Assembly: GCA_019636235.1 (NCBI GenBank)
Contig: JAHBXW010000007.1
Span: forward strand, 62,001 to 126,000
Direction: 5' to 3'
Source: Planctomyces sp.
Lineage (GTDB): Bacteria; Planctomycetota; Planctomycetia; Planctomycetales; Planctomycetaceae
Length of the DNA stretch: 64,000 nt
Numbering within the stretch: position 1 is the stretch's first letter; the number at the start of each line of letters is the position of its first letter. Under the pieces are notes generated by a model. It saw only the letters and a program-made list of their open reading frames with translations. It was not told the origin of the DNA and searched no databases. Below are positions 20,251 to 27,142 of the stretch, one piece after another. Both the position numbers and the translations under genes were made by a program.

Positions 20251-22140
20251 ATGCGGCTGTGGTACAACCAGATCCACGACAGCCGACGCTCGCTGCTCGA
20301 GACCGAGCACGACCTCGTCTCGATCGGACGCGACCGCGCCAACACGCTGGTCCTCAACAGCCCGCTGGTCTCCAAGAAACAGGCCCTGATCCGCCGCGTC
20401 GAGGGACGTCTCGTCCTGCACAACCTCGGGCTGAACAGTTGCGTCGTCGGCGATGACGAGGTCCTCGGCGGGCAGTCCCGGGAGTTCACCGCCGGCGAAA
20501 CCGTCCGCATCTGGCCCTACACGATCACCATCGAGACGGCCGACGTCGCCCCCATCGGCCGGCAGGAACTCGAACAACACCTGCGGTCCCTGATGTCGGG
20601 GCTCGAAACCCGCGTCCACCGCACGCTGCTCAGCCGGTTCGAACTCTACGAACTCGAACAAAACCGCCTGGGGGACGAACGCAACATCCTGCAACTGGAG
20701 CAGCACATCGAGGACGTCTGCCGGGAGCTGCAGTTGTTCTCGGACGCCAACGAACCGCTGCTCGAAGAGGTCGTCGGACTGGTGCTTCGCGACTACGTCG
20801 TGAACCAGTTGATCCTGGAAAGCGACGACGACCGCACGCGCACCGCGCGGCTGACCTGGAACGAATTCGATGTCCCGACGACGCTCGTCCCCGAGCGGGA
20901 AACCGAACTCCAGAACCTGCTGAAGATCGCCCGGGAACAACTGCAGCTCGACGCCCAGCCGGACCTCAGCAGCCGCATCCGCCGCGTGGAGTCGCACTTC
21001 ACGCAGGTGTTTCCGCAGCTCCGGACGCAGTTGCATCGGGAGCTGCGGCGGTACCTCGTGCTGCGGACCTTGAAGAAGGACTTGAAGGACACGGTATTCG
21101 GGTACGGGCCGCTGCAGGACCTGCTGCGGGCGCCGACGATCACGGAGATCATGGTCATCCGCAGCGATCAGATCTATGTGGAGCGGGACGGCGTGATCGA
21201 GCTGTCGGGGCGGCGGTTTCTGTCGGACAAGGTGACGGAATCGATCATTGAACGGATCGTGGCGCAGGTCGGACGGCGGATCGACAAGAGTCAGCCGCTG
21301 GTCGACGCCCGGCTGGACGACGGCAGCCGCGTGAACGCCGTCATTCCGCCGCTGGCCGTCCGGGGGCCCTGCCTGACGATCCGCAAGTTTCCGGCGTTCC
21401 GGTTCACGATGGAGGACCTGGTCGACACGGACACGCTGACGGCGTCCGCGGCGGCGTTCCTGCGGGCCTGCGTCGTCGACCAGCGAAACATCCTCGTCAG
21501 CGGCGGCACGGGCGCCGGCAAGACGACGCTGCTGAACGTCCTGTCCGCGTTCATTCCGGTCAAGGAGCGGATCATCACGGTCGAGGACACGCAGGAGCTG
21601 CAGTTGAGGCAGGAGCACGTGGTGTCGCTGGAGTCGAAGCCGGCGAACATCGAGGGGGCCGGGGCCTACACCATTCGCGACCTGGTGCGGAATGCGCTCC
21701 GCATGCGGCCCGACCGGATCATCGTCGGCGAGTGCCGCGGCGCCGAGGCGCTGGATATGCTGCAGGCCATGAACACCGGGCACGACGGCTCGATGACGAC
21801 CGTGCACGCGAACAGCTCCGAGGAAGTCGTGAAACGGCTGGAGCTGCTGGTGCTGATGGGGGCGGAGATCCCGGTGGCGTCGATCCACCGTCAGATCGCC
21901 TCGGCGATCGACGTCATCGTGCAGATCAGCCGGGAGTCAGGGGGCCGGCGGGTCATCACGCAGGTTTCCGAGGCCGCGGGGTACGATGAGCAGACCGGCC
22001 GGCTGATCATCCATGACGTATTCAATCGCCGGAACGGCCAGACGCTGACGCCCACGGGATACCTGCCGACGTTTCTGGGACAACTGTTGGAATCGCGGCT
22101 GTTGCCGATCGAGTTTCTGCTGGACGGGGCGCCGGGGTGA
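20251..22140 (+). CDS. cpaF: FHA-domain CpaF-type secretion ATPase
   Basis: A 629-residue protein: an N-terminal forkhead-associated (phosphothreonine-binding) domain (about 10-95; [23 protein letters not shown]), a helical linker, and a type II/IV secretion ATPase of the CpaF/TadA family. Visible are the N-terminal ATPase domain ([18 protein letters not shown]), Walker [13 protein letters not shown] (417-428), [11 protein letters not shown], Walker [36 protein letters not shown]. CpaF motors drive Tad/Flp pilus assembly. Odd: no other tad genes (tadB, tadC, flp, rcpA) are in the window, and FHA fusion implies control by Ser/Thr phosphorylation. Followed by an overlapping membrane-protein gene. 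Confidence 0.88.
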
Positions 22141-22685: not shown

Positions 22686-23201
22686 TCACCAGCCGCGGCA
22701 GCCCCCTTCTTCGCCGAGCGCCCGCGTCGTGTACTGCGGCTGGCTGACGACCGGCCAGCGCTGCGACGGCCGCGACGCCGCGCCTTCCTCGCCGAGCGCG
22801 AACGTCGTGATCTGGCGGGGCGGGGCGCTGCCCTCCTCGCCGAGCGCGAAAGTCGTGACGGTGTTCCGCGGCGGACGCGGCGAACTGCCTTCCTCCCCCA
22901 GCGCGTACGTCGTCGCCGTGTTTCGCGGCGGACGCGGCGAACTCCCCTCTTCACCAAGTGCGAATGTCGTCATCTGCGGGTTTCGCGGCTGCGGCGCGGG
23001 GCCGGGACGCCCCCCTTCTTCGCCGAGCGCCTGCGTCGTCGCCCGCCCGTTGGCCAGGCTGGATCGGCCGATCATCAGCGCCGCCAGACCCGCGAGGCCT
23101 CCCGCGATCCGTCCGAAAAACGAACGCCGCGTCGCCGGCGCGTCCGTCGCTTCCCGCGTTCCCGTTTCTGCAGGCAGGATGCCTTCGAAGGGATGTTGCA
23201 T
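22686..23201 (-). CDS. Multicore graspetide-type precursor with twin-arginine-like leader
   Basis: A 171-residue protein, predicted ribosomal precursor of an omega-ester-linked peptide. A short leader (MQHPFEGILPAETG) and a twin-arginine segment (RRSFFG, 25-30) with a hydrophobic stretch to about 49 precede six copies of TT-x-ALGEE-G, whose Thr pairs are at 55-56, 78-79, 97-98, 116-117, 132-133 and 158-159. The third residue varies (Q, F, Y, F, F, R). Spacers are P/R/S-rich. TTxxxxEE is the core pattern of plesiocin-type graspetides, in which Thr hydroxyls are esterified to Glu side chains by an ATP-grasp enzyme; such an enzyme is divergently encoded 70 bp away. The ATG has GAGGAG 8 nt upstream. 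Confidence 0.8.
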   Translation of the reverse strand: MQHPFEGILPAETGTREATDAPATRRSFFGRIAGGLAGLAALMIGRSSLANGRATTQALGEEGGRPGPAPQPRNPQMTTFALGEEGSSPRPPRNTATTYALGEEGSSPRPPRNTVTTFALGEEGSAPPRQITTFALGEEGAASRPSQRWPVVSQPQYTTRALGEEGGCRGW

Positions 23202-23271
23202 CGTCCGTCTCCTCAAACTCGCTACGCTGCCGTCAGTCGATTCGTGTTCTCGAAATCCAGGGACGGCGGCG

Positions 23272-24174
23272 ATGACCATTTTGATTCTGGGCGGGGCCGA
23301 CGATGACCACGCCCGGCAGGTCCTCGAACGGTTGACCGCCCGGGGAGCTGACGCGGAACTGCTGGACAGCCGCGACTTCCCGGAGCGGACGCAGGTCGCA
23401 TACCGGCCCGGCCAAAACGACGGCGAATTGAGTCTGCCGCACGGTCGCTCGATTCCGTTCGCCGGAATCCGTTCCGTGTATTGGCGTTCCTACGCGGGGC
23501 CGCGGGCCGCGCCGCTCCCCGACCCCGAGCAGGCCTACATCGCCACCAACGACGCGCGCAGCCTGTTTGAGTCCATACTCATCAACCTGAGGGCGCGCTG
23601 GGTCAACGGCTGGAAGGCGTTTCAGCTGCATCAGACCAAGCCGGTCCAACTGGCGATCGTCGCTCAACTGGGCGTCGATGTGCCCGAAACGCTGCTCGCG
23701 AACCATCCGGATGCGGTGCGGGAGTTCGCCGCCCGCGTGCCCTGCATCTTCAAGCCCGTGCAGGGAGGCGCGCACGCCCGTGAACTCACGCCAGACCTGC
23801 TGACCGACGAGGCGCTGTCCCGACTGCGGCTGGCCCCGGTGACGATTCAGGAGGCGATCCCCGGGACGAACATTCGCGTGTTCGTGGCCGGCAGCGTGGT
23901 GGACGCCTGCGAGATCGAAGCCGCCTCCCTCGATTTTCGGGATGACCCCCGCGCGCGGCTCCGCGTGCACGCCTTGCCCGATGATAGCGCCGAGCAGAGC
24001 CGCAGGATCGCCGAGGCGCTCGACCTGGTGTGGACGGGCATCGACTACCGGCTGACGGCGGATGGGCGATACGTGTTCCTGGAGGCGAACCCCAGCCCGA
24101 TGTTCCTGGGCTTCGAGGCCGCGACCGGACTGCCGCTGACGGAGCGCCTGCTGGCGCTGTTGACGGAGGCGTGA
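23272..24174 (+). CDS. ATP-grasp peptide ligase, MvdC/MvdD-like (graspetide synthetase)
   Basis: A 300-residue ATP-grasp protein. The N-terminal pre-ATP-grasp region reads MTILILGGADDDHARQVLERL, with SVYWRSYAGPRAAPLPD (69-85) matching the YWRR-like segment of microviridin ligases. The grasp fold shows FQLHQTKPVQLAIVAQLGVDVPETL, a nucleotide lysine in CIFKPVQGG (Lys161), TIQEAIPGTNIRVFV, and metal ligands near Asp258, Glu271 and Asn273 (WTGIDYRLTADGRYVFLEANPSP). These enzymes phosphorylate Glu/Asp carboxylates and form esters or amides in a precursor peptide. The adjacent TTxALGEE-repeat precursor is the obvious substrate. A general RimK-like ligase is the alternative. Confidence 0.85.
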   Translation: MTILILGGADDDHARQVLERLTARGADAELLDSRDFPERTQVAYRPGQNDGELSLPHGRSIPFAGIRSVYWRSYAGPRAAPLPDPEQAYIATNDARSLFESILINLRARWVNGWKAFQLHQTKPVQLAIVAQLGVDVPETLLANHPDAVREFAARVPCIFKPVQGGAHARELTPDLLTDEALSRLRLAPVTIQEAIPGTNIRVFVAGSVVDACEIEAASLDFRDDPRARLRVHALPDDSAEQSRRIAEALDLVWTGIDYRLTADGRYVFLEANPSPMFLGFEAATGLPLTERLLALLTEA

Positions 24175-24262: not shown

Positions 24263-27142
24263 ATGGCAATTCTGGGCGTCCGGGTCCTCGGGACGGCGGC
24301 ACGGGCGACCCCTCGTGAAAGCATCGTGGTGACTGAGACGACCGAGACGAAAGCACAACCCGGACGCGAGCGGCTGAACCGCCGCGACAAGGCCGCCCTC
24401 GTCGTCCTCCTCGCCGGGATTCCGCTGATGGCGTTCGCCCTCCGGGGCGTCCGAATTGAGAACGACGTCGAACAGTGGCTGCCCGAAGAAGACAGCGGCT
24501 CGCTGATCCTCGACTGGCATTACGAGCATTTCTCGCCGCAGGAACGGTTTCTTGTCGGCTGGGACAGCAACTCGCTCGACGATCCCCGGGTCGAGCGTCT
24601 GGCGGCGCTGCTCGCCGGCCCGCCCGACCGCGAGGGCTTCCGGGCCGGACATGATCCGCGGATCGAACGCGTCTCGACGCCCCGGGACCTGCTGCAGCGG
24701 ATGCACGAAAACCGCATCCCGCTCGCCGAGTCGATCCGCCGCTGCGTCGGCGTCTCCATCGGCCACGGGGCGCTGAAGATCGAACTGACGGACGACGGGC
24801 GGACCCAGCCCGAGCTGACGTTCCGCAAGATCGCCGACACGCTGGTCGAGCTCGGCGTCGCGCCGATCCTGATGCCGCCGCTGCGCCGCGCCGACGTCCT
24901 CCCCGCGGGCGAGTCGGCCCAGCCGGACGATCCGCTGCACCGGGCGTCGCTGCTGGACATCGCCGAACACGACCTGCAGGTCCGCTGGAAGGGGCTGACG
25001 CCCGACGGGCCGCTGATCGAGGAGATCCGCAACACGCTGCCGATGATCCGCCAGAACGCCCGCCCGCTGGTGAAGAGCGTGTTCTTCGCTCCGGGGGCGC
25101 CGGTGGCGGTGACGATCGTCTTGACGCAGGCGGGATCGGACGACGTCACCGGCAGCGTGGCGGTCGTCCGCGCGGCGGCGGACGAGGTCGGCATCCCGCT
25201 CGACGAGCTGCGGATGGGGGGCGCGCCGATCGGGCGCAGCCGCCTGAACCGCGAGGCCATCCGGGCGCTGTGGAACACCGACTATCCCGCATGGAACCTC
25301 TACAAACGCTCGCCCGTGCTGTTGTCGGCGCTGGTCGGCGCGCTGCTGGCGATGGTCATGCTCAGGGGGGTGCGGCTGACGGCGATCGTACTGTTCGCGG
25401 CGACGTACGTGGCCTGCGCGACGGTCGCGCTGGTGCCCTTGATGGGCGACACGCTGAACATGGTTCTGGTGGTGATGCCCAACCTGATGCTGGTGGTGAC
25501 GATGTCGGGGGCGATCCACATCATCAACTACTGGCGGCATGAGCTGGACGACGACGGCGACGGAGCGGTGAGCCGCGCGGTCCGCACGGGGCTGGCGCCC
25601 TGCACGCTGGCCAGCGTGACGACGGCGATCGGCACGGCGTCGCTGGCGACGAGCACGCTGCTGCCGATCCGTTCCTTCGGACTGTATTCGACGGTCGGCG
25701 TGCTGGGATCGTTGGCGATGGTGCTGTTGGGCGTGCCGGCGCTGCTCAAGCTGGCGGGCCCGGGCTCGCGGGGCCGCCGCGCGCCGTCCTCGCGGAACAG
25801 CGGCTGGCGGACGCTGGGCTGGTTCACCAGCAAGTACCACGTGGCCATCCAGTTTCTGCTGACCGTGGTATTCCTGCAGTCCGTGTGGGGCATGCAGTGG
25901 CTGCGCACGGAAACGAAAGTCATCCGTTACTTCCCGGACCATCTGCGGATCGTCGAGGACTACGATTTCTTCGAACAGCTGCTGGCCGGCGTGGTGAACG
26001 TCGACGTGCTCGTGCACTTCAACGAGTCCGCGATCGCGGAGACCGACATCGTCCGACGGCTGGAGACCGTGCGGGCGATCGAGACAGCGCTGCAGAACCA
26101 GCCGGGCGTGACCGGGACGCTGTCGGTCGCCGACTTCCGGCGGACGCTGGAACCACCCGCCGAGGATGAGCCGCTGCGCGTGAAGTTGTTGTATCGCCAG
26201 GGGCTGCGGCGGATGCGGGCCGGCATTTTCCAACTGCCGTTCGGATCCAGCGCAGCGCCTGATCCGGTCGAGGCCAGCGAGCCGGACGCGGCGCCGTCCG
26301 GCAGCGTGGCGTCCTCCAGCCTGGCGACGCTGGTCCGCCGTCCGCTGCAGCTCGAGCACGACGGCCGGAACGTCGACTTCCGCGAAGGGGATGAGGTCTG
26401 GCGGATCCGCGTGCACTGCAACGTGCTGGGCGACATCAACTACTCGTCCCTGCTCGCGCAGGTCGACCTGCGGGTCCGCGAATCCCTGGGGGATTATCCG
26501 GGGGCGGACTTTGTCATCACCGGCTCGGTGCCGCTGTTCCTGCACGCCCAGCAGGAGCTGCTGCGGAGCCTGATCACGAGCTTCGGGCTGGCGGTGGGAT
26601 TGATCACGCTGATGGTGATGCTGCTGCTGCGGAGCGTGCGGGGCGGGCTGTACGCGATGCTGCCCAACCTGTTTCCGGTGGGCGTTTCGTTTGGCACTCT
26701 GGCCTGGATGAAGGTGCCGATCGACGTCGGCACAATGATGACGGCGTCGATCGCACTGGGGCTGGCGATCGATGCGACGCTGCATCTGATCACCTGGTTC
26801 GAGGACAGTCTGGAGCGGGAACGACATCGCTCGTCTGCGGTCAAGGAATCGCTGTTGCAGTGCGGTCCGGCCGTGTTTCAGACGAGCGTGATCATCGCGT
26901 TCGGGATGTTCATGCTGAGCGGCGCGGACCTGTTGCTGATCTCGCGGTTCGGCTGGCTGATGGCGCTGCTGGCGTTGACGGCGCTGGTGTCGGACATCGT
27001 GCTGCTGCCGGCGCTGCTGGCGTCGCGGATGGGCGAATTGCTGCGGCCCCGAAAGATCATGCGGAAGCCGCGCGGCGCGTCGTCCCGGAAGGCGACCGAG
27101 CTGGCTGGGCAACCCGCCGCGGAGTCGGGCGGAGCGGATTAA
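24263..27142 (+). CDS. RND-superfamily (MMPL/patched-like) exporter
   Basis: A 959-residue inner-membrane protein with the duplicated RND layout: a first helix (ALVVLLAGIPLMAFAL), a large periplasmic domain with NDVEQWLPEEDSG, five helices (about 350-520) including LMLVVTMSGAIHIINYWRHE, a second single helix and periplasmic domain, and a final five-helix bundle with LGLAIDATLHLITWFEDSLERERHR. Such proteins move lipids or hydrophobic molecules using the proton gradient. The true start may be a GTG at 24326 or 24329, giving about 937 residues, because the ATG at 24263 lacks a ribosome binding site. It follows the graspetide ligase on the same strand; a role in product export is possible but speculative. 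Confidence 0.85.
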   Translation: MAILGVRVLGTAARATPRESIVVTETTETKAQPGRERLNRRDKAALVVLLAGIPLMAFALRGVRIENDVEQWLPEEDSGSLILDWHYEHFSPQERFLVGWDSNSLDDPRVERLAALLAGPPDREGFRAGHDPRIERVSTPRDLLQRMHENRIPLAESIRRCVGVSIGHGALKIELTDDGRTQPELTFRKIADTLVELGVAPILMPPLRRADVLPAGESAQPDDPLHRASLLDIAEHDLQVRWKGLTPDGPLIEEIRNTLPMIRQNARPLVKSVFFAPGAPVAVTIVLTQAGSDDVTGSVAVVRAAADEVGIPLDELRMGGAPIGRSRLNREAIRALWNTDYPAWNLYKRSPVLLSALVGALLAMVMLRGVRLTAIVLFAATYVACATVALVPLMGDTLNMVLVVMPNLMLVVTMSGAIHIINYWRHELDDDGDGAVSRAVRTGLAPCTLASVTTAIGTASLATSTLLPIRSFGLYSTVGVLGSLAMVLLGVPALLKLAGPGSRGRRAPSSRNSGWRTLGWFTSKYHVAIQFLLTVVFLQSVWGMQWLRTETKVIRYFPDHLRIVEDYDFFEQLLAGVVNVDVLVHFNESAIAETDIVRRLETVRAIETALQNQPGVTGTLSVADFRRTLEPPAEDEPLRVKLLYRQGLRRMRAGIFQLPFGSSAAPDPVEASEPDAAPSGSVASSSLATLVRRPLQLEHDGRNVDFREGDEVWRIRVHCNVLGDINYSSLLAQVDLRVRESLGDYPGADFVITGSVPLFLHAQQELLRSLITSFGLAVGLITLMVMLLLRSVRGGLYAMLPNLFPVGVSFGTLAWMKVPIDVGTMMTASIALGLAIDATLHLITWFEDSLERERHRSSAVKESLLQCGPAVFQTSVIIAFGMFMLSGADLLLISRFGWLMALLALTALVSDIVLLPALLASRMGELLRPRKIMRKPRGASSRKATELAGQPAAESGGAD

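Follow-up and report, generated by a model that had tools for sequence, protein, structure and literature searches.

The closest described relatives of the locus considered here are graspetides of the plesiocin type. Plesiocin is of the hairpin kind and carries two esters in every repeat (PMC12291112). Its core motif is TT....EE and its leader is of the LFIE type. The plesiocin system (PsnA2/PsnB) and the present locus share a repeated TT....EE core, for which two esters per repeat are inferred here, as well as a single ATP-grasp enzyme related to the structure 7drm; they differ in that our precursor has, in place of an LFIE-type leader, an HPF motif (MQHPFEG) and a Tat-like signal, and in that cores are fused to other domains in its relatives. 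HPF-leader TTxALGEE precursors of cyanobacteria and proteobacteria (referred to below as the sister group) have the same start and the same cores but no Tat-like signal, and a C39-ABC-type open reading frame (ORF) accompanies 11 of their 59 loci. Microviridins (MvdD/MvdC) and fuscimiditide (ThfA/ThfB) likewise combine an ATP-grasp macrocyclase with a short PF-type leader motif, which is PFFARFL in the microviridins (PMC8939145) and the recognition tetrapeptide RPFG in ThfA (PMC13003496), the comparison used here for HPF; however, their core topologies are different and no Tat-like signal is described in the sections bearing on them. RiPP-lipoprotein hybrids, which are modified by MNIO enzymes, resemble the locus in that a precursor's N-terminal signal leads to a general export pathway, but that pathway is the lipoprotein one, with lipidation, another modifying enzyme and no Tat (PMC12636315).

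Graspetide groups were reportedly defined by Lee 2020 and Ramesh 2021, and 19 new groups have since been added to 24 earlier ones, some with long repeat precursors (Carter 2026, PMC13097080). The Phhx(1,2)h leader motif and GG sites were described by Makarova 2022 (PMC8939145), in whose survey the leader-cleaving enzyme was still unknown; a 2026 paper, to judge by its title, concerns a protease acting on the leaders of class I microviridins. Engineered passage through Tat has been described for nisin (PMC11048544). No whole-word Tat was found in Makarova 2022 (section 5 plus term searches), no twin-arginine in Carter 2026 (section 7 plus passages), and neither graspetide nor RiPP in a term search of a review of Planctomycetota metabolites (PMC12078418). 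Searches of the open-access literature returned no paper containing both graspetide and twin-arginine, although supplements lay outside these searches and an earlier listing is possible. Tat export of graspetides is thus undescribed in the literature searched, whereas the plesiocin-like core type is already known. The explanation favoured here is that the two genes form a graspetide system in which the precursor has a bipartite leader, an explanation that is likely as a whole but rests on comparison only, the esters, the use of Tat and the activity of the product being untested.

The precursor gene and its ligase

The window, by which is meant the whole stretch of 64,000 nucleotides analysed (Planctomyces sp., contig JAHBXW010000007.1, positions 62,001 to 126,000 of the forward strand), belongs to a genome of 5.6 Mb in 45 contigs. 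Two divergent ORFs, with start codons 70 bp apart, make up the locus, whose features are as follows in window coordinates.

22686..23201, minus strand: precursor gene, 171 aa, with HPF leader, Tat-like signal and six TTxALGEEG cores
23181..23201, minus strand: N-terminal HPF motif MQHPFEG; role in ligase recognition inferred
23052..23132, minus strand: Tat-like signal, with TRRSFFG at residues 24-30, hydrophobic stretch at 32-45 and possible SLA|NG site at 48-50|51
23013..23039, minus strand: core 1, TTQALGEEG
22944..22970, minus strand: core 2, TTFALGEEG
22887..22913, minus strand: core 3, TTYALGEEG
22830..22856, minus strand: core 4, TTFALGEEG
22782..22808, minus strand: core 5, TTFALGEEG
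22704..22730, minus strand: core 6, TTRALGEEG
23202..23271, no strand: divergent intergenic region, 70 bp, between the two start codons
23272..24174, plus strand: graspetide synthetase-like ATP-grasp ligase, 300 aa, with matches to TIGR04187, MvdD and PDB 7drm

The precursor ORF runs from the ATG at 23201 to the stop at 22686 and begins MQHPFEGIL. A second in-frame ATG lies farther upstream at 23279; the start is taken as 23201 because 22 of 23 core-bearing relatives, selected whatever their leader, have HPF, because relatives begin M-x-HPF where they could be read, and because GAGGAG directly precedes this ATG. Its Thr pairs, at residues 55, 78, 97, 116, 132 and 158, each fall within a TTxALGEEG repeat, position 3 being Q, F, Y, F, F and R in order, and with six TTxALGEE repeats the protein meets the plesiocin-like criterion of a repeated TTxxxxEE core. 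As a DNA pattern, TTxALGEEG matches six times in the whole genome, every time inside this ORF, and its reversed control not at all. The precursor matches no NCBIfam family at E 1 or better, and its only Pfam match is below cut-off.

The best NCBIfam match of the ligase is TIGR04187, an ATP-grasp ribosomal peptide maturase (1.3e-43, 149 bits), followed by MvdD (85 bits, 6.7e-24), MvdC (83 bits) and the RimK family (40 bits). All of these scores are below the curated cut-offs, which for TIGR04187 is 350 bits. In Pfam, RimK is matched above cut-off (2e-7) and the MvdD pre-ATP-grasp domain below it. The closest solved structure is PDB 7drm (1.4e-37), which we take to be PsnB, the plesiocin synthetase. 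The enzyme is therefore probably graspetide-like, and nearer to TIGR04187 and 7drm than to MvdC or MvdD, with the reservation that family scores fall short of the cut-offs and no ester has been observed.

The locus had earlier been read without database searches as a probable new graspetide locus. In that sequence-only reading, the 171-residue precursor with six repeats, the positions of its Thr pairs and a divergent ATP-grasp gene 70 bp away have all held, as has the twin-arginine motif with its hydrophobic stretch. The description of the ligase as MvdC/MvdD-like held in part, given the closer matches named above. The claim of a new graspetide failed in part: because the TTxxxxEE core type is already known, what is new is a leader and export variant. 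The conserved N-terminal HPF motif, common to the cyanobacterial relatives, is an addition to that reading.

An MMPL-family protein is encoded downstream of the ligase (24263-27142) and, upstream in the window (20251-22140), an FHA-domain ATPase of the T2SSE family. These two and a small upstream ORF were considered as a third conserved gene, and are regarded as bystanders because none has a tblastn match (1e-5) in 25 related loci.

Distribution of ligases and core arrays

In a sample of 248 genomes of the class, ligase matches at 1e-30 or better occur in ten, nine of which are the window's own genome or carry a ligase 53-64% identical to that of the window. All nine of these genomes also have a gene whose product combines an HPF start with a twin-arginine signal and TTxAxGEE cores, so that the co-occurrence of ligase and repeats, a check proposed by the sequence-only reading, has turned out favourably. 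The nine clade ligases align over their full length, with invariant KPVQGGA, RVF and EANPSPMF blocks. The tenth genome (G478) has a ligase 33% identical and no core array within about 7 kb of it. Clustered core arrays are present in 11 of the 248 genomes, namely the nine clade-ligase genomes and two more (G536 and G603), and in all 11 an ATP-grasp enzyme (of the clade in nine, at 26% identity in two) and a Tat-like leader are found. In G536 and G603 (loci L205, L206 and L207), the Tat-like leader is without HPF, the cores are TTxAxGEE, and the 26%-identical ATP-grasp gene adjoins the array; the G603 gene is divided across two contig ends. Tat and graspetide cores may have been joined independently in these two genomes.

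Two simpler markers proved unsuitable. The HPF pattern alone matches 33 of the 248 genomes, of which eight are real, and misses G437; the matching genomes G034, G307 and G512 have neither a clade ligase nor a core array. Dispersed TT.A.GEE matches, in 13 of 24 matching class genomes, are single or far apart, a pattern produced by the reversed control too, and were left out of the array count.

A profile built from the nine-ligase alignment and scanned against 84,980 species genomes gave 135 relatives, the best 80 of which were used. These comprise 59 cyanobacterial or proteobacterial loci and 21 planctomycete-type loci, one of the latter being labelled as a Rhizobium metagenome-assembled genome but grouping with planctomycetes in the ligase tree. 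An HPF-Tat gene adjoins the ligase in 19 of the 21. Addition of the window, G001 and G043 makes a unique planctomycete-type set of 24 loci, 22 of which have an adjacent gene in the order M-x-HPF, twin-arginine signal, cores; one of these (L135) is cut by a contig end before the cores. Another, from G001, a genome of the same genus (L057, G001:C1:2640859-2641324), has its HPF-Tat leader and six-core array in different frames, and may be frameshifted or reflect an assembly error. The adjacent pairs are divergent in 14 cases, on the same strand in six and convergent in two. No adjacent precursor was found in 11.5 kb at L136, and in the genome of G558 (L200) about 87 kb separate the precursor gene from the ligase. 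Among the carriers are Singulisphaera acidiphila (L125), Isosphaera, Gemmataceae and Phycisphaerae. A quickly built tree of 88 ligases places the 24 Tat-HPF rows and L136 on one branch (SH-aLRT 99); the root of the tree is unsure, some branches are long, and the ligases of L148, L165, L173 and L195 were left out.

In a phylum sample of 392 genomes, the core pattern matches in 19, with at least two matches in 10. Seven multi-match genomes lie outside the class. Five of them (G101, G203, G214, G231 and G244) have the same cores without a Tat-like signal; the leader is of the LFIE type or resembles it (FVEEL in the case of G214), and a ligase of 33-36% identity adjoins one array or more. The other two are G094, with short TT.AIGEE peptides and ligase-like matches near one of two, and G185 (L070 and L071), whose TT.A.GEE proteins have no ATP-grasp ligase match in the sequence stretch examined. 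By script count, the LFIE-leader precursors of G101 (L066 and L067) have 7 and 17 cores, those of L067 being mixed with VTLAIPE[SG]G repeats that resemble single-ring units.

Ligases of the sister group are 40-50% identical to that of the window, and 40 of the 59 loci yielded a precursor by the rule of HPF or SPF plus cores. Near these ligases, clusters of RTX-repeat, PpiC-type and HlyD-type ORFs occur in 14, 12 and 9 of the 59 loci, respectively (one member of each checked in Pfam: L183:855-1805, L185:9464-10264 and L190:1910-3196). A Leptolyngbya precursor (L180:5055-6020) is 320 aa long, with at least six cores, a long N-terminal part and no Tat-like signal.

Paired loss of core residues and the proposed esters

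The core residues on which esterification would depend are conserved in planctomycetes. Among 102 cores anchored on xxxA[hydrophobic]GxxG, position 1 is T or S in 97, position 2 is T in 99, and positions 7 and 8 are E in 99 and 97, while position 3 is occupied by 13 different residues. Covariation was examined in repeats anchored on Thr2 and Glu7 plus Ala4 or Gly6, leaving positions 1 and 8 free. Across 128 repeats from 23 planctomycete precursors, T/S1 and E/D8 are both present in 113, T/S1 only in 1, E/D8 only in 2 and neither in 12, a concordance of 125/128 (Fisher 5e-14). The corresponding counts are 109, 2, 6 and 10 (Fisher 2e-9) for 127 repeats from 40 cyanobacterial and proteobacterial precursors (40 of the 59 sister loci contributing one each), and 66, 0, 0 and 6 (6e-9) for 72 repeats from eight ORFs of the LFIE set, where all six joint losses come from one gene. 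When position 8 was shuffled within precursors, the observed concordance was reached in 0 of 20,000 trials for each set (p 5e-5). Joint loss of Thr1 and Glu8, with Thr2 and Glu7 remaining, is seen in eight different planctomycete and ten sister precursors. These statistics ignore kinship of the genes, and repeats are not independent across related genes. The paired loss probably reflects nested Thr1-Glu8 and Thr2-Glu7 esters, a connectivity inferred from covariation without any ester having been observed. Two further points of the sequence-only reading are met here, since it had called for conserved core Thr and Glu, which are conserved and in relatives are lost in pairs, and had inferred a bicyclic or hairpin ester unit in each repeat, which the T1-E8 covariation supports, the chemistry itself being inferred.

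It could instead be argued that the repeats are not cross-linked at all, and that the locus encodes a Tat-exported repeat protein and a RimK-like ligase that acts otherwise, for example in glutamate addition. In favour of this alternative are the above-threshold RimK match in Pfam and the failure of the ligase to reach the graspetide cut-offs. Against it, TIGR04187, MvdD and MvdC all outscore the RimK family in NCBIfam, 7drm is the top solved match, and paired T1/E8 loss recurs in three sets; we consider it very unlikely. In the preferred model of a two-gene graspetide system, the ligase, acting in the cytoplasm, would bind the precursor at its N-terminal HPF motif and would form nested Thr1-Glu8 and Thr2-Glu7 side-chain esters in each TT-x-A-L-G-E-E unit, which would thereby become a bicyclic hairpin. 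The window precursor would receive up to 12 esters, with the pairing taken from covariation and the chemistry not shown.

The proposed bipartite leader, fused domains and inferred export

A twin-arginine motif followed by a hydrophobic stretch satisfies, in the window leader, the sequence criterion of a Tat substrate. Of the precursor sets available, the pooled set of 23 planctomycete precursors had been collected with HPF and RR as conditions, giving an initial Tat count of 23/23; the Tat count was for this reason taken from a cores-only selection of ORFs with at least two T[TS]xAxGE[ED] cores, leader disregarded. Among its planctomycete ORFs, HPF is present in 22 of 23, and RR with a hydrophobic 14-mer upstream of the cores also in 22 of 23 (L058 and L138 being the same gene), the sole exception being the frameshifted G001. 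Among its sister ORFs, HPF or SPF is present in 28 of 29 (the exception begins at the end of its locus) and a Tat-like signal in none of 29; nor was one found in 40 sister precursors by a wider rule or in six LFIE-type leaders. Profile support is weak: TIGR02811, a Tat-target model, is matched below cut-off by three of four Tat-type precursors (L132, L144 and L205) and by none of six others, and the Pfam Tat model, also below cut-off, by one of ten precursors scanned (L143), with no match in three further Tat-type precursors.

Cleavage sites were sought in the pooled set, from which L058 (duplicate of L138) and G001 (out of frame) were dropped and in which L135 was kept though cut. By a strict rule, 19 of 23 have an AxA/AxG-polar site against a shuffled mean of 11.2, and 11 of 23 have an [AL]x[AG]Q site against 3.3; in neither case did any of 2000 shuffles reach as high. 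A lenient AxA rule was dropped as uninformative, its shuffled mean being 22.4 of 23. These counts bear on an alternative in which the modification is the same but the RR-hydrophobic segment stays uncleaved as a signal anchor, so that the hairpins remain tethered on the outer face of the cytoplasmic membrane. The hydrophobic stretch could by itself span the membrane, the window's own putative site, SLA|NG, is not strong, and the lenient test gives no information; however, the enrichment of both stricter sites speaks against an anchor, which is unlikely. On the preferred reading of a cleaved Tat-like signal, carried by the same leader as HPF, the cross-linked product would cross the membrane via Tat, a step inferred from a signal recognised only at the sequence level, and signal peptidase would remove leader and signal together near A50|N51. 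The product would be approximately residues 51-171, an exported string of six stapled hairpins.

A C39-ABC-type ORF cluster, one member of which was confirmed by Pfam, is found in none of the 21 planctomycete-type loci (flanks up to 6 kb), compared with 11 of the 59 sister loci. The window genome encodes TatC (4.8e-61) and has one C39 domain (1.2e-8), on another contig, and no C39 domain match was found anywhere in five of nine carrier genomes. Another alternative holds that this is an ordinary plesiocin-type graspetide with an arginine-rich helix in its leader, exported and relieved of that leader by an unlinked transporter, C39-type or other. The single C39 domain of the window genome and the C39-ABC-type ORFs of the sister loci would favour it, and so would GG or GA before the core in 33 of 40 sister precursors, but this occurs also in 19 of 23 planctomycete ones, and the loose GG/GA rule was dropped as non-discriminating. 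It is opposed by the Tat-like signal of 22/23 planctomycete against 0/29 sister ORFs, by the five carrier genomes without a C39 match, and by G536 and G603, in which a Tat-like signal without HPF is combined with a distantly related ligase, and is very unlikely. Because a Tat-like signal is present, C39-ABC ORFs are absent from the 21 loci and five of nine genomes lack C39, the dedicated transporter-protease has apparently been replaced, and the general Tat system and signal peptidase would stand in for the C39-type enzyme. This replacement is likely, but is inferred from sequence alone, with Tat use and export untested.

By our reading, eight of the pooled 23 precursors are core-only and 15 have another domain (L135 being cut before its cores); in the proposed model such relatives would present the same cores on exported proteins that hold further domains. 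In L139 (L139:32-1195), a 3-keto-disaccharide hydrolase domain (PF06439, 3.8e-47) has cores on either side of it and a Tat-like signal ahead of them. Five others (L138 and L141-L144) have a helical domain, modelled for L144 (pLDDT 88), to which L138 and L141 align at just 23-25%; the structural matches of the model are weak TPR-like ones, none of which reaches E 0.001. Three (L103, L124 and L127) have a C-terminal domain of no assigned family, without a Pfam match in L124 and L127. A tandem ferredoxin-like domain is found in six (L059, L128, L130, L134, L135 and L137). The AlphaFold model of the L134 domain (pLDDT 82) shows two ferredoxin-like modules, for which Foldseek returned nothing at E 0.001 or better. 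VIA-align ranked a PCSK9 prodomain chain first (Z 8.0), with unrelated Mesd/Boca chains at 7-8 and subtilisin propeptides at 6-7, and Pfam I9 is matched below cut-off in three of four scanned proteins with this domain. That the predicted fold is propeptide-like is merely suggested, since Mesd/Boca score similarly and the I9 matches are below cut-off, but it remains possible.

Plesiocin inhibits serine proteases, and inhibition rises with the number of cyclised motifs (PMC13097080). By analogy, the product may act as a multi-headed inhibitor of serine proteases, with the variable core residue 3 determining its specificity, a proposal that has as much chance of being wrong as right and rests on the plesiocin literature and weak domain evidence. 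A bolder reading, towards which we are slightly more sceptical than favourable, is that ester stapling serves as a folding step for the Tat cargo of Planctomycetota, rendering a disordered repeat tail export-competent, and that the system likewise staples tails on folded proteins that are exported, with 3-keto-disaccharide hydrolase, tandem ferredoxin-like and perhaps propeptide-like, or helical domains, and so modifies secreted proteins in general.

For the removal of the leader, the leader itself suggests a likely answer in Tat and signal peptidase, as inferred from sequence. The paired loss of Thr1 and Glu8 provides a way of testing ester connectivity from sequence alone, to which other graspetide groups are open as well. 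If the proposed system is true, it would provide a natural example of a repeat protein that is stapled and then exported in folded form, linking ring chemistry to the folding check of Tat, and would widen the reach of graspetide chemistry to precursors at least 300 residues long. Were the bolder reading also true, graspetide chemistry would modify secreted proteins generally, beyond small peptides.
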